From: Pseudomonadota bacterium
GTDB taxonomy: Bacteria; Desulfobacterota; Binatia; Binatales; Binataceae
DNA length: 64,000 nt
Direction of reading: 5' to 3'
NCBI GenBank assembly: GCA_021325355.1
Contig: JAJPHI010000009.1
Coordinates: forward strand, 186,001 to 250,000
In this document: positions 4,296-14,870 of the stretch, piece after piece
How the letters are laid out: each line of letters opens with the position of its first letter
Numbering within the stretch: position 1 is the stretch's first letter
Notes under the pieces: generated by a model
Databases searched by the model: none
Told to the model about the DNA's origin: nothing
Seen by the model: only the letters and a program-made list of their open reading frames with translations
Translations under genes and position numbers: made by a program

Positions 4296-6173
4296 TCAAT
4301 GCATCGCGTGCTGCTCGGCGGTGCTGAGCCCGTTGATCTTGCCCTTCAGTCGGGCGATCTGATCGGTGTCCTGCGCCTTGACCAGGGCGTCTTCGTACTG
4401 ATGGCGGGCATCGCGCAGCTTGCCGATCTTGCGATAGGCATCGCCGAGATGTTCGGTGATCGTCGGATCGTCGCCGGTCAGGTTGACGGCGCGCTCGAGC
4501 TGGTCAACCGCGCGGCCGTAATCGCCCTTCTGGTAGTAGACCCAGCCGAGGCTATCGACATAGAAACCGTCGTCCGGCTCGATCGCGAGGGCACGCTTAA
4601 TCAGACGTTCGGCCTCATCAAGATGGACACCGGATTCGGCGTAGGTGTAACCGAGATAGTTGAGCGCCGGAGCGTTGCTCGGATTGAGTTGGATCGCGCG
4701 GCGCATCTCGGCGATTCCCGCCTCTTTCTGCTTGTCCTCGTCGTAGAGCGCGCCGAGCGCGAAGTGGAATTTATCGTTGCCCGGCTCGAGAGCGACCATC
4801 TTCTTCGCCAGAGCGATCGCCTTCGGATAGTCCTTCTCCTCCTGATAGATGCCGACGAGGAAGCTCATGATCTCAGTATCGTTGGGTTTCTGCTCGAGCG
4901 CTTCGTTAATCTTCTGGATCGCCAGGGCGTGGTTGCCTTCCTTGTCGTAGACGTTGGCCTCCTGCCAGCGCGACTCAGCGAAATGCGGGTCGGAGCGCGG
5001 GACCTGTTCAAACGCCTTGATCGCGCTGTCGTTTTCGTCCAGCTCGACATAGACAATCCCCAGGTAATACCGCACACGATAATTTTGCGGCTGCTCAGCC
5101 AGCACCAGGCTCAGCTCGGTGGCGGCGGAATCAAAGTCGTCGCGTTCGATATCGAGCAGCCCGAGCTTGGTGCGCGTATCGACGGGGGTAACCGCAAGCT
5201 GTTGGCGCCGCTCGGCAACCGCCGCCGCCGGATCGAGCCTGGCCGCCCCGCCGTGGAGCTGCGCGAGGCGCTTGCGCGCGTCATCGTTGCTCGGGTCGGA
5301 TTGCAGGATTTTGTTATAGATCGTCACCGCCTCGGCCGGACGGTTCTGCAGCTCGCGCAGCACCGCGATATCGAGCAGAACCAGCTCCGACTGCGGGCTT
5401 AAATCAAGCGCCTTCTGATAGTAATCGTCGGCGCGATCATAATGACCGGAAAGCGCGGCCACACGGCCGGCATAGTAGTAGCCCAGGAAGGAGTTGGGGT
5501 CGAGTTGTGTCGCCCGGGCCAGCGCGGCTTCGGCGCTCGCATAGTCGCCCTGTTTGGCCTCGATCGCGCCCAGGAACAGATAGGGCGTGATCGATTTCGG
5601 CGCGAGCACCGCGACCTCCTGGTACTCGGCGACCGCCGTCTTATAGTCGCCGCGCGCGGTGGCGATATCCGCGTCGAGCATCAATGCCTCGGCATCTTTG
5701 GGATCGAGCTTGAGCGCTTCCCTGGTCTGATGCTGCGCGTCCTCCACGCGCCCTTCCTCCAGATAGAGCTGGGCCAGCTTGACTCGCAGCGAAGCATTGT
5801 TCGGATCGTACTTCACCGCCTCCTCGTATTCGTGAAAGGCCTCGTTGTGGTCACCGTTATCACTGGCGAGCTCCGCCTTGAGGAATGCGCCCATCGCATA
5901 GGCCGCCGGCGGCATATCGACGGCGGGACTCCCGCCAAAGGGTCGGGACGCGGCGGTGGCCGAGGCGACACCGCCGCCGTGCGCGGCATCGTTAAAGGCG
6001 CAGGCGACGGTGAGCAGGACGAAGGCTGCGACAACACCCATCATGAGATGAGACGAAAGGCTGGATAAGGGCGGCACGACTCGCGATACTTCAGGCAATG
6101 CCTCAGAATTCCTTGAACCAAACTTCCGTGCGGCCATCGTCTTAGTGTTGCGCTTGCCGCCGGCAGGGCGCAA
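4296..6173 (-). CDS. Tetratricopeptide-repeat protein, probable lipoprotein
   Basis: 625 residues made mostly of TPR units from about residue 85 to 610. Repeated cores such as ANDNGDHNEAFHEYEEAV-type helices, YKTAVAEYQEV, YDRADDYYQKAL and YGRAVDQLERAV occur roughly every 34 residues, giving 14 or more repeats. A hydrophobic segment at residues 44-58 (MGVVAAFVLLTVAC) looks like a lipoprotein signal with a non-canonical lipobox TVAC. The true start is therefore probably Met44/45, around 6040. TPR superhelices mediate protein contacts. Lying 4 bp before the lipoprotein gene, it may scaffold an envelope complex tied to the ABC importer. Confidence 0.8.
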   Translation of the reverse strand: MRPAGGKRNTKTMAARKFGSRNSEALPEVSRVVPPLSSLSSHLMMGVVAAFVLLTVACAFNDAAHGGGVASATAASRPFGGSPAVDMPPAAYAMGAFLKAELASDNGDHNEAFHEYEEAVKYDPNNASLRVKLAQLYLEEGRVEDAQHQTREALKLDPKDAEALMLDADIATARGDYKTAVAEYQEVAVLAPKSITPYLFLGAIEAKQGDYASAEAALARATQLDPNSFLGYYYAGRVAALSGHYDRADDYYQKALDLSPQSELVLLDIAVLRELQNRPAEAVTIYNKILQSDPSNDDARKRLAQLHGGAARLDPAAAVAERRQQLAVTPVDTRTKLGLLDIERDDFDSAATELSLVLAEQPQNYRVRYYLGIVYVELDENDSAIKAFEQVPRSDPHFAESRWQEANVYDKEGNHALAIQKINEALEQKPNDTEIMSFLVGIYQEEKDYPKAIALAKKMVALEPGNDKFHFALGALYDEDKQKEAGIAEMRRAIQLNPSNAPALNYLGYTYAESGVHLDEAERLIKRALAIEPDDGFYVDSLGWVYYQKGDYGRAVDQLERAVNLTGDDPTITEHLGDAYRKIGKLRDARHQYEDALVKAQDTDQIARLKGKINGLSTAEQHAMH

Positions 6174-11968: not shown

Positions 11969-12610
11969 ATGCAGAATCAGTTCAGCATTTTGGCGATGAT
12001 TCAACAGGGATGGTACGCGACCTACCCGCTGCTGATCATCTCGGTCATTTGCACTACGATTATCCTGGAACGCATCTGGGCGCTGTGGGGTGTCGCGCGC
12101 CACGCCAGCCATAGCGCCGAACGGCTGCTCGGTCCATTGAAACAGGGCAATTTTGACGGCGCGCTGGAACAGCTCAACGGCCATCATGGCGCGGGCCCTC
12201 GGATCTTTCACGAAATCATCTCGGAAGCCCGCACCGCCGATCGTTCGCGACTCGAAGATCTCGACGAGGAGCGGCGGTTCGCCGAAGTCACGCAACTCAA
12301 GGGACTTATCTGGGTGCTCGCGACCTCGGGCGCTTCCGCGCCGTTCATCGGGCTCTTCGGGACCGTGGTCGGCATCCTGGTCGCCTTTCAGTCGATGGCG
12401 GTAATGGGCACCGGCGGCTTCTCGGTGGTCGCCGCCGGCATCTCGGAAGCGCTCATCTCGACGGCGCTCGGACTCATCGTCGCGATTATCGCGGTGATTT
12501 TTTACAACTACTTCTCGCAGAAGATCGAAGCCATCAACGCGACCATTCACATCTGCGACGCGCGGCTAATCGACGCGGCGCTGGCCGGCAGGGCGAACGG
12601 TGGCAGTTAA
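11969..12610 (+). CDS. TolQ/ExbB/MotA-family proton-channel subunit
   Basis: 213 residues, the normal length for TolQ/ExbB, with the family's three membrane segments: residues 17-40, about 112-145 and about 160-190. The conserved proton-channel stretch SAPFIGLFGTVVGI (residues 123-136) and the third-helix stretch SEALISTALGL are clear. In this family five such subunits surround two TolR/ExbD helices and convert proton flow into movement. Gene order then gives two ExbD-like genes and a vWA protein, not tolA, tolB or pal. This is therefore a dedicated motor rather than the Tol-Pal cell-division system. The next gene's GTG overlaps it by 11 nt. Confidence 0.93.
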   Translation: MQNQFSILAMIQQGWYATYPLLIISVICTTIILERIWALWGVARHASHSAERLLGPLKQGNFDGALEQLNGHHGAGPRIFHEIISEARTADRSRLEDLDEERRFAEVTQLKGLIWVLATSGASAPFIGLFGTVVGILVAFQSMAVMGTGGFSVVAAGISEALISTALGLIVAIIAVIFYNYFSQKIEAINATIHICDARLIDAALAGRANGGS

Positions 12611-13040
12611 CACGCCTCAAGGCCAGGGCGGCGTCTTCTGGGAGATCAACATCACGCCGCTCACCGACATCTTCCTGGTCCTGCTGATCATCTTCATGGT
12701 TACGGCTTCGGTCGCCGTCGAATCGGCAACCCATGTGGATCTGCCCTCGGCCGCAATCACCACGCCGGAGAACAAGGGCGTCATTGTGACCTACACGGCG
12801 AATCATGAGCTGTTCGTCAACTCCAAGGACGTGCCCGAACGTGAATTCGAGCCGGTGCTGCACGACGCGCTGAGTCGCGTCGATGCCAAGGTGGTAATTT
12901 TTCAGGGCGATCGCATGGTCCTGCTCGGAGACATGGTGCGGATTCTCGATATTGCCAAGATGGCCGGCGCCGATCAGATCGCGATCGCCGCCAAACGCGC
13001 GACACCGACCGGCAACGGCAGTGGCGCGACGAGCAGCTAA
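12600..13040 (+). CDS. ExbD/TolR-family motor protein, copy 1
   Basis: 146 residues with one membrane helix, residues 24-42. Its cytoplasmic edge carries INITPLTDIFLVLLIIFM. Asp23 is the expected proton-binding residue of the ExbD/TolR family. The C-terminal part is the periplasmic domain with a typical ELFVNSKDVP strand. GTG is the start, inside the 3' end of the TolQ-like gene, so translation is coupled. It is followed after 42 bp by a second copy, and its helix region is nearly identical in DNA to that copy. Confidence 0.92.
   Translation: MAVNTPQGQGGVFWEINITPLTDIFLVLLIIFMVTASVAVESATHVDLPSAAITTPENKGVIVTYTANHELFVNSKDVPEREFEPVLHDALSRVDAKVVIFQGDRMVLLGDMVRILDIAKMAGADQIAIAAKRATPTGNGSGATSS
12645..12700 (+). 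repeat. Direct repeat, unit 1, in exbD-like copy 1
   Basis: The 56 bases encoding the end of the N-terminus and the membrane helix recur 480 bp downstream at 13125-13180 with only two differences, both silent C/T changes. Similarity weakens on either side. The segment marks an ancestral tandem duplication of exbD kept similar by selection or gene conversion. Confidence 0.85.
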
Positions 13041-13082
13041 GCGCGAAAAGCGCAAGGGCCGGAACGGCGTCAGGGCATAATA

Positions 13083-13601
13083 ATGGCGATACAGAGCGGC
13101 AATCAGGGCGGTATCTTCGCCACCATCAACATCACGCCGCTCACCGATATCTTCCTGGTCCTGCTGATCATCTTTATGGTGGCGACGGCGGTGACGATCG
13201 AATCCGCCGCCCACGTTGATTTGCCCCGGCTCGCCGCGCCTTCGGAGAATCAGCCGCACGGCGTCACCGTGACCTATACCTCGAACCATCAGATCTACGT
13301 CAATCAGAAGCCGGTCAGCGAGCGAGAGCTGGCCGATGCCGTCAAACAGGCGCTCGCCGCGTCGCCGCTCAAGCTGGTCGTTTTCGACGGCGATCCGAAG
13401 GTAATCCTCGGCGACGCCGTGCGGATCATCGGTATCGCCAAAGAGTCGGGCGCCGCGCAGATTTCGCTGGCGGTTGAGCACGCGGCCGGGCCGCCTTCGC
13501 CGGCGGAAACCACGCCCGAAGTCAGTGTTCCACAACCCGAGGAAGTGGCGCCCGGCGGCGGGCCTGCGCCTGAACCCGTCGCTCCTTCCGGGGGACCCTA
13601 G
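13083..13601 (+). CDS. ExbD/TolR-family motor protein, copy 2 with Pro-rich tail
   Basis: 172 residues. The membrane helix and Asp22 in INITPLTDIFLVLLIIFM match copy 1, and the periplasmic domain is similar (QIYVNQKPVSERELADA). It differs by a C-terminal tail of about 30 residues rich in Pro, Glu and Gly (residues 141-172), which looks disordered and could link to the partner vWA protein. The stop lies 3 bp before the vWA gene. Two ExbD paralogues next to one ExbB occur in other bacteria, for example in Xanthomonas. Confidence 0.92.
   Translation: MAIQSGNQGGIFATINITPLTDIFLVLLIIFMVATAVTIESAAHVDLPRLAAPSENQPHGVTVTYTSNHQIYVNQKPVSERELADAVKQALAASPLKLVVFDGDPKVILGDAVRIIGIAKESGAAQISLAVEHAAGPPSPAETTPEVSVPQPEEVAPGGGPAPEPVAPSGGP
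13125..13180 (+). repeat. Direct repeat, unit 2, in exbD-like copy 2
   Basis: Partner of 12645-12700 at an exact 480-bp offset. Flanking bases such as CAGGGCGG at 12624 and 13104 are also in register. Confidence 0.85.
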
Positions 13602-13604
13602 CGC

Positions 13605-14870
13605 ATGTCGATTGCTGATTGGCTTAACGCTCGAATCGCCGCGATCGGCCTCCTGCGCGTCATCGCCGGCGTCGCCGTCATCATTTCCGTCCTCCTGGTC
13701 GCCGCCCTCATCGGCTATTGGCGCTCCGCCCGTCGAGCCCCGGGCACAGCCGTTCCGGATGAGGCGCCGATGCTTGGCGGTGAACGCCGCTCATGGTGGA
13801 ACATCTTTCGTTTCATCGAAGGTCCGTTCGAAATCTCGATCGCGCTTCACGTCCTGATCATTGTCGCCCTGCTCTGGGGCGTGCATCTGCAGGCCGGCAA
13901 CAATCTGATCATGGTCAGACTGCAGGGCGGGGGCGGCGGCGCCACGCAGGAGCTCAAGCAACTCAACCTGCCCGAGATGGCGATGCCGCAAATGAAGATG
14001 CCGCTGCCGATCGAGCGGCCGGTGGTCGCCTCGCAAAGCTCCGAAGTGATTTCCACCGCTACGCGCTACGTGCGCAGCGCCATGATCGGTGAAGGGATCG
14101 GCGCCGGGCGCGGCGGCGGTATCGGCGTCGGCTACGGACAGGGCGTGGGCGCGGGCTTTGGCGGCTTCATCGCCGGTCTGCGCAAGTCCGGATTCGAAAT
14201 CGCGATCATCGTCGATGGAACCGGCTCGATGCTCCGCGTAATCGACGACGCCAAGGCGCGGATGCGCCAGCTTATCTTCGCGATCCATCGGCTGGTGCCG
14301 ACCGCACGGATCGGAATCGTGGTCTTCGGCGGCCGCGGCGAGCCGATCGAGATGCAACAGCTCACCACCTCGCCCGACAAGCTGCTGGATTTCCTCGAAA
14401 GTATCTCCGCGCACAACGGCGGCGAATGGCAGGAGGACACCCTGGGCGCTATCCGCACCGCGGTCGATCGGATGGCCTGGAAACCCGAATCACACAAGGT
14501 GATCATCCTGATTGGCGATACGCCGCCCTTCAATGAAGACTACGAACCGGTGCTCGACGAAATCCGCCGCTTTCACGCCGAGCACGGCTCTTTCAACACG
14601 GTGGACGTTACGGTCGAGGAACACGAGCGCTTCGTCCGCGATTACTACGCGTCGATGGGGATGAAGCCGCCACCAGGTGCCTTCAAAGAGATGCCCGAGT
14701 TCTATGCTCAGACGCAGAATGCCTATCGGCTGATGGCGCAAACCGGTGGCGGGGTCTGGAAGAGCCTCACCAAAGACCAGCAGGTCAGTCAGCAGATTCT
14801 GCTGCTCGCCTTCGGCGACGAATGGCAGAACGAGGTTTCGGCGTTCGGCCGCCACCTCACTTCGCGCTGA
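13605..14870 (+). CDS. Membrane-anchored vWA protein with TonB-like S-x3-H helix
   Basis: 421 residues. TM1 is at about 11-38 and TM2 at about 76-96. The loop between them holds Arg40, 43, 44, 61 and 62, so it should be cytoplasmic and everything after TM2 periplasmic. TM2 contains Ser78-x3-His82, the spacing of the Ser/His pair by which TonB and TolA engage ExbB/TolQ. Next come a Met/Pro-rich stretch (123-139) and a Gly-rich hinge (162-188). The vWA domain runs from about 196 to the end, with a metal-site motif D204-G-T-G-S208 (D-x-S/T-x-S). As last gene of the motor operon it is the likely moved part. I know of no characterised homologue; the function is inference. Confidence 0.82.
   Translation: MSIADWLNARIAAIGLLRVIAGVAVIISVLLVAALIGYWRSARRAPGTAVPDEAPMLGGERRSWWNIFRFIEGPFEISIALHVLIIVALLWGVHLQAGNNLIMVRLQGGGGGATQELKQLNLPEMAMPQMKMPLPIERPVVASQSSEVISTATRYVRSAMIGEGIGAGRGGGIGVGYGQGVGAGFGGFIAGLRKSGFEIAIIVDGTGSMLRVIDDAKARMRQLIFAIHRLVPTARIGIVVFGGRGEPIEMQQLTTSPDKLLDFLESISAHNGGEWQEDTLGAIRTAVDRMAWKPESHKVIILIGDTPPFNEDYEPVLDEIRRFHAEHGSFNTVDVTVEEHERFVRDYYASMGMKPPPGAFKEMPEFYAQTQNAYRLMAQTGGGVWKSLTKDQQVSQQILLLAFGDEWQNEVSAFGRHLTSR

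Follow-up and report, generated by a model that had tools for sequence, protein, structure and literature searches.

A candidate vWA force transducer encoded with a TolQ/TolR-type motor in the family Binataceae

Results

The window analyzed here is a 64,000-nucleotide stretch of contig JAJPHI010000009.1 (positions 186,001 to 250,000) in assembly GCA_021325355.1, from a bacterium that GTDB places in the family Binataceae (Desulfobacterota; Binatia; Binatales). At window positions 11969-14870 (+) it carries an operon of four same-strand open reading frames (ORFs) that encode one TolQ/ExbB-like protein, two TolR/ExbD-like proteins, and a von Willebrand factor A (vWA) protein. The TolQ/ExbB-like protein (11969..12610, +; 213 aa; PF01618, 1.8e-28) is the predicted subunit of a motor pentamer. 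It is followed by the first TolR/ExbD-like subunit (12600..13040, +; 146 aa; PF02472, 1.7e-21), by the second (13083..13601, +; 172 aa; PF02472, 6.3e-22), which ends in a Pro/Gly-rich C-terminal tail, and by the vWA protein, the force-transducer candidate (13605..14870, +; 421 aa; PF13519 VWA_2, 4e-10). The genes are tightly packed: the first two overlap by 11 bases, and the next two junctions are gaps of 42 and 3 bases. ORF starts were assigned mechanically here and at all other loci. A preliminary description of the window had proposed this operon from the letters alone, and Pfam supports each of its members. In a search of solved structures the motor proteins find ExbB/TolQ (best 1.2e-17) and ExbD/TolR (best 5.6e-13).

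The feature that would tie the vWA protein to the motor is a transmembrane (TM) helix. Hydropathy, computed over the first 170 residues, gives two hydrophobic segments: TM1, an extra N-terminal helix at residues 19-37 (13659..13715, +), and TM2 at residues 77-95 (13833..13889, +), which aligns with the single TM segment of relatives and is the predicted motor-docking helix. Near the start of TM2 stands Ser78-x3-His82 (13836..13850, +), the S and H of the SHLS motif (PMC12215075). As that source describes it, the docking of E. coli TonB and TolA through these Ser-His residues has been solved structurally, and Ser34 of ExbB or Ser28 of TolQ, in TM1, contacts the pair. The full pattern S-x3-H-x6-L-x3-S is present in part: Leu89 supplies the leucine, which is kept in 23 of 24 rows from the window's family and in 8/17 outside it, and the final serine is missing. 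At E <= 1, Pfam finds neither TonB_C nor TolA in the vWA protein, and the tolA_full model reaches E 0.19 over residues 74-93, far under its cut-off.

The preliminary description had let its proposal stand or fall with the conservation of Ser78 and His82, and the refuting result was not found: the first column holds serine in 51 of 52 homologues and the second histidine in 52 of 52. Forty-one of these form an alignment of 24 rows from the window's family and 17 class relatives outside it, with serine in 40 (alanine in L068) and histidine in 41; L003 and L004 were omitted as apparent duplicates of L039 and L038, and no row came from L074, a fragment interrupted by a stop codon. The class relatives were recruited by a match that starts at residue 127 or later, mainly the vWA part, so their recruitment did not depend on the helix. 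The 11 further homologues (L121-L130, L138), found by a profile that itself spans the helix, all have S-x3-H in their first or only N-terminal hydrophobic helix, and 10 have motor genes adjacent. A control set of eight distant vWA proteins (L131-L137, L140), none with motor genes in the vicinity, came from the same profile search. The seven that could be read all lack S-x3-H and have signal-type starts instead; TM segments could not be assessed in L136 (cut at a contig start) or in L139 (167 aa). The S-x3-H pair, kept by almost all relatives, is thus more than a chance occurrence.

Whereas TonB and TolA have a single N-terminal TM segment, hydropathy gives a pair of hydrophobic segments in 23/24 rows from the window's family (L055 has one and a doubtful start). 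The extra helix occurs in 0/17 class relatives outside the family; 16 of these have a single hydrophobic helix near the N-terminus, the one bearing S-x3-H, and the 17th, L067, is a long and probably mis-started ORF without a helix call. This single helix suggests that the vWA domain is probably periplasmic. The distribution of lysine and arginine points the same way. In all 23 two-helix rows the inter-helix loop is richer in Lys+Arg than the N-terminal tail or the 25 residues past TM2; in the 16 single-helix relatives, where segments of unequal length are compared, the pre-helix part exceeds the next 25 residues in 13, ties in L061 and L068, and is lower in L073. Topology read from hydropathy and charge therefore favors a motor helix that runs N-in/C-out, an extra TM1 that is N-out in the window's family, and, as the preliminary description held, a vWA domain that is probably in the periplasm; a prediction that places it in the cytoplasm was not obtained. 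Right after TM2 lies a candidate motor-box strand, LIMVRL (residues 101-106; 13905..13922, +), with hydrophobics at 102/104/106 in 23-24 of 24 family rows and a weaker pattern outside. A glycine-rich hinge (residues 164-187; 14094..14165, +) precedes the vWA domain; it is alike in most family rows and variable outside.

The motor proteins retain the residues expected of a proton channel of the TolQ/TolR type. Both helix aspartates of the preliminary description, Asp23 in the first TolR-like protein and Asp22 in the second, are where it placed them, and the column holds Asp in 67/67 TolR rows. The operon TolQ-like protein retains the pore threonines (in GLFGTV and EALxxT), and its Ser25 in TM1, aligned with the TolQ and ExbB of its own genome and with relatives, is the counterpart of ExbB Ser34/TolQ Ser28. 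The TM1 serine, the glutamate of EALxxT, and the two pore threonines are kept in 45/45 TolQ rows, that is, all rows except the TolQ and ExbB of the window's own genome, and including L060:1629, which comes from the second motor of that locus (L060:1220-2288, a divergent TolQ/TolR pair near the vWA system of one class relative). These residues bear on a different arrangement, in which the vWA protein would be a dimeric pore partner of TolQ, of the transpore-helix (TPH) type, that rotates within the pentamer. A second vWA family of this kind is described in PMC12204202 (Idiomarina type, Fig. 4c,d), and it shares with the window system a TolQ-like motor and a tethered vWA domain. However, the TPH-vWA/TolQ pairs are described there as having a pore Asp and lacking both TolR and the SHLS motif with its S-x3-H, whereas the window system is the reverse: it encodes two genuine TolR proteins with Asp, it has S-x3-H, and the sequences of TM1 and TM2 of the vWA protein contain no Asp. 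A pore-partner role is hardly to be expected.

The association of the vWA gene with motor genes extends well beyond the window. A whole-protein search matched 42/57 genomes at E <= 1e-30 and 48 at E <= 1e-3, the remainder being weak matches to other vWA proteins or fragments; a profile search matched 87/148 genomes of the class at E <= 1e-30 and 50/395 of the phylum at E <= 1e-10, many of the 50 through the vWA domain alone. Of the 24 loci in the window's family, 18 have tolQ and tolR adjoining the vWA gene, as do all 17 class relatives and 10/11 further loci; the eleventh is cut by a contig end. The search for vWA proteins with an S-x3-H helix beside motor genes, which the preliminary description had suggested, recovers them by profile across class and phylum. 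Each of the 18 linked family loci has two tolR genes; mostly one is recognized in the class relatives, and five further loci carry an additional, divergent tolR-like gene (one checked in Pfam). The six unlinked family loci comprise four extra copies (L049, L050, L055, L056), L054 near a contig start, and the locus of genome G005. Although no motor was found alongside these six copies, S and H persist in all of them, a pattern consistent with direct docking on a motor.

The window operon is flanked on the opposite strand by a short-chain dehydrogenase (SDR) gene upstream and by a gene for a trypsin-like/PDZ protein downstream. One genus has its vWA gene outside the tolQ-tolR-tolR operon (G005:C22, G005:C11 [L036, L205], and G019:C243 [L206]), and there the operon keeps the usual family neighbors, SDR and Nudix-like; in G019 the search yielded no vWA gene anywhere. 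Several genomes (G015, G020, G022, G437, G438) hold multiple vWA copies or fragments, some at contig ends, which may reflect either recent duplication or assembly breaks. A secreted-looking protein is encoded directly beside six vWA genes (L043, L045, L047, L048, L050, L056), two of them motorless copies; the one scanned (L056, 214 aa) has no Pfam match.

A second protein accompanies the system. It is a secreted tetratricopeptide repeat (TPR) protein of ~800 aa (mostly ~690-950 aa where complete), with Pfam TPR matches in 4/4 scanned, and its gene is a neighbor of the system in every one of the 17 class relatives and in 9/11 further loci; contig ends cut the remaining two loci. The window itself does not contain this gene. 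The window's genome (G000) has one unlinked homologue, on contig C12 at 95896-98313 (L151:6882-9311; ~810 aa; E 1.6e-181), and across the family the TPR profile matches 32/41 genomes. Among the 35 family genomes covered by both searches, 24 have vWA and TPR and 8 have neither. By genus (n = 17, a genus being positive for a gene if any one of its genomes has it), 11 have both, 6 have neither, and 0 are discordant. On a quick TolB tree of 37/41 family genomes (four were omitted because TolB was missing or partial), the two traits change 6 and 5 times, and about 3 independent pairs agree, 0 oppose, and about 2 show no difference. Corrected for ancestry, the co-occurrence is suggestive. Whether the secreted TPR protein is the direct ligand of the vWA domain we regard as an even call.

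The motor itself was followed by its TolQ in seven of the ten family genomes that lack the vWA gene (leaving aside G012, G017, and G027) and in two that have it. G005, G019, and G024 have the system-specific TolQ (62-76% identity); G002, G003, G008, G014, G016, and G033 lack it, their matches, at 32-48%, being Tol/Ton-like. A TPR protein encoded inside the window (4296-6173, -; 625 aa, ~ten TPRs) was rejected as the partner, scoring only 36 bits on the partner profile; adjacent TPR partners score at least 416 bits, except the truncated L126 (129 bits), and the C12 homologue of the window's genome scores 604 bits on a different profile of the same family. Neighbors of the unlinked TPR gene at 12 loci give no functional clue; glyoxalase-, HAD-, and antiporter-type frames recur among them, as read from ORFs.

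The vWA core spans approximately residues 198-332 (14196..14600, +), as located by PF13519, the alignment, and Foldseek, and has a MIDAS-like D204-x-T206-x-S208 together with D305. D204 is invariant, and T206 and S208 are each found in 40/41 rows. Position 274 is mainly acidic, with D in 17/17 rows outside the window's family. The loop-3 residue Asp305 is present in 24/24 family rows and 0/17 class relatives outside, and T279 in 20/24 and 0/17. Metal binding, which the preliminary description had proposed, is therefore plausible for the window protein given its conserved D204, T206, and S208, but the absence of D305 and T279 outside the family means that it is no defining trait of the wider group. 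A Foldseek search with an AlphaFold2 model of the vWA part, built from a single sequence and of modest confidence (predicted local distance difference test [pLDDT] 58.6), points to solved vWA/I domains (best E 1.8e-6, listed TM-scores 0.1-0.5). A model of the whole protein from three homologues was discarded at pLDDT 44. In the solved-structure search the single vWA sequence gave no match at E <= 0.1, and the vWA profile gave only two weak eukaryotic vWA matches.

The window operon is the fourth motor of its genome (3.36 Mb, 95% complete), in which PF01618 occurs at four places and PF02472 at four, two of the latter inside the operon. A tolQ-tolR-tolA-tolB-pal-ybgF-like cluster lies on contig C7 (TolB_N and TonB_C matches; order from ORFs). 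By ORF reading, exbB-exbD-tonB stands beside a frame resembling a TonB-dependent receptor, and motA-motB stands among flagellar-looking genes that include FliM/FliG-like ORFs. The absence of tolA, tolB, and pal noted in the preliminary description thus holds for the locus and fails for the genome as a whole. Two more TonB_C proteins are encoded besides tolA and tonB (G000:C19:102017-102247 and G000:C20:337405-337593, in frames of 285 and 536 aa). The operon motor proteins match the NCBIfam tolQ, tolR, exbB, and exbD models, but none of these matches reaches the curated cut-off of its model; the motor is thus a relative of Tol and Ton that can be assigned to neither. Such matches are what a displaced or spare Tol/Ton motor with an unrelated vWA neighbor would also give. 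However, separate Tol-Pal and ExbBD-TonB systems in the same genome mean that the operon is no displaced Tol or Ton system, and the vWA linkage is kept across class and phylum; of all the explanations weighed here, we give this one the least credence. The dedicated proton motor of the preliminary description, by comparison, is supported by the conserved TolQ and TolR residues in an operon of its own, apart from Tol-Pal and Ton. A relation to Zorya was also rejected: ZorA reaches only E 0.02-0.05 with the TolQ-like protein, and the other three proteins have no match at E <= 1.

Discussion

The preliminary description, otherwise largely sound in its reasoning, offered the operon as an undescribed system, which it is not. 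In 2025 Williams-Jones et al. (PMC12204202, Fig. 4a,b) reported vWA force transducers whose genes accompany TPR-tolQ-tolR-tolR; they linked no phenotype to them and gave their function as unknown. As far as our searches show, this is the first report of the kind. According to that report, many of these proteins have an SHLS helix, a motor box, and a linker of ~100 residues, they occur in several phyla including Proteobacteria, and in the PVC group the neighborhood of the vWA gene often holds a TPR gene, a tolQ, and two tolR genes. The window system belongs to this kind by its features, the Tichowtungia proteins being compared by description only. Like the reported transducers, it combines a tolR pair with a vWA protein that has the S and H of SHLS in a TM helix and ends in a vWA domain, and a TPR gene co-occurs with it; the strand-like stretch at 101-106 follows the helix, and residues 96-196 fit the reported linker length. 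It differs in that the reported transducers are described with a TonB/TolA-like topology and a TM helix, whereas the window protein has two helices with the motor helix second; its TPR gene is also unlinked, and the last serine of SHLS is absent. What is new here is the extra N-terminal helix and the suggestive co-occurrence of an unlinked secreted TPR protein. The main text of a 2026 review (PMC12905483) mentions neither vWA nor von Willebrand, and we found no other publication on such vWA-motor operons, judged by titles and abstract openings.

It is useful to contrast the window system with the machines it most resembles. With TonB-ExbBD and TolA-TolQR it shares the motor type, the serine and histidine of the motor helix, and a C-terminal domain, probably periplasmic, on a long linker. 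It differs in ending in a vWA domain rather than TonB_C or TolA_C, in its added TM1, and in a locus without tolB or pal. With AglRQS-Glt of Myxococcus xanthus it shares a composition of one TolQ-like and two TolR-like proteins, and signal-peptide TPR proteins occur in the Glt clusters of that wider machine (PMC3169522). This resemblance raises the idea of an Agl-Glt-like gliding or surface-traction machine, a role that PMC12204202 names as possible; the myxobacterial adhesin CglB, moreover, carries a vWA domain, to judge by the title of a reference cited there. (Section 8 of PMC12204202 credits the vWA fold to "AglZ/AlgZ," whereas the cited title concerns CglB, which is apparently what is meant.) However, AglR contacts GltG, and PMC3169522, in the text available to us, mentions no vWA transducer with a motor helix. 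The vWA domain here would be tethered to the inner membrane through the motor helix, unlike a surface adhesin, and the MotAB genes beside FliM/FliG-like ORFs make another form of motility likely. We therefore consider a gliding function improbable.

The interpretation that we prefer is that the vWA protein is a TonB/TolA-type force transducer on a dedicated motor, and for this mechanism as a whole we estimate a probability of about two in three. The case is read from sequence and draws on gene content, motif conservation, motor residues, gene linkage, and TPR co-occurrence. In the mechanism we envisage, a TolQ-like pentamer would surround a TolR-like pair as a proton motor of the 5:2 type, and TM2 of the vWA protein would dock on the outer face of a TolQ-like subunit through Ser78 and His82. 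The strand at 101-106 may then pair with the TolR periplasmic domain as a motor box, by analogy with the account in PMC12204202. A Pro/Gly-rich linker of roughly 90 residues (~107-196; ~30 nm fully stretched, by arithmetic) would span the periplasm and carry the vWA domain to a partner in the periplasm or on the outer-membrane side, which proton flow would pull or release. The best candidate for this partner would be the secreted ~800-aa TPR protein, or something that it holds. The cellular role is probably the maintenance or remodeling of the outer envelope, separate from Tol-Pal and Ton.

Several observations weigh against this interpretation. First, the tryptophan that partners the Ser-His pair of TonB and TolA (ExbB Trp38/TolQ Trp32) is found in 0/45 TolQ rows, with Thr29 in its place here, which argues against the contact taking exactly the form it has in E. 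coli, and the last serine of SHLS is replaced by Val93. As a counterweight, the ExbB of the window's own genome lacks that tryptophan as well as the TM1 serine, so the Ser/Trp contact is not universal. Second, of the two AlphaFold2 monomer models, one has low and the other modest confidence. Third, gene linkage is imperfect. Four genomes hold an extra vWA copy without an adjacent motor (that of a fifth, G015, lies so close to a contig start that it allows no judgment), G005 has its vWA gene apart from a tolQ-tolR-tolR operon on another contig, and G019 has tolQ-tolR-tolR and the TPR gene in an assembly without a vWA gene. Finally, within the window's family just 3/24 loci (L051-L053) have the TPR gene next to the operon. 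Of the 35 family genomes, G024 has vWA only and G019 and G033 have TPR only, and on independent tree pairs alone the TPR-vWA association has p 0.25, which leaves it suggestive and unproven.

The unlinked copies, including that of G005, would also suit a vWA protein that acts as a motor-associated assembly or regulatory factor, such as a ligand-gated sensor or a Bat-like scaffold, and bears no load. The pairing of a vWA protein with a secreted TPR protein is reminiscent of Bat operons too. Against such a factor, the S-x3-H helix is near-invariant even in relatives recruited mainly by their vWA part, and it persists in the unlinked copies as well. We consider a non-load-bearing role unlikely, though more deserving of attention than gliding, and retain the force transducer as our working interpretation.

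To our knowledge, few outputs of TolQR/ExbBD-type motors are understood. A conserved motor with a transducer that ends in a vWA domain, and with a candidate secreted partner, provides a test of whether TonB/TolA pulling is a general platform. More tentatively, and at clearly less than even odds, the system may represent a third general trans-envelope force system beside Tol-Pal and Ton, with a two-helix transducer whose motor helix comes second, behind an N-out helix, and with a dedicated TPR cargo or ligand tied to it by gain and loss despite the separation of the genes. The extra N-terminal helix of the window's family suggests that a motor helix need not be N-terminal. If so, searches limited to single-TM, TonB-like proteins could miss transducers.

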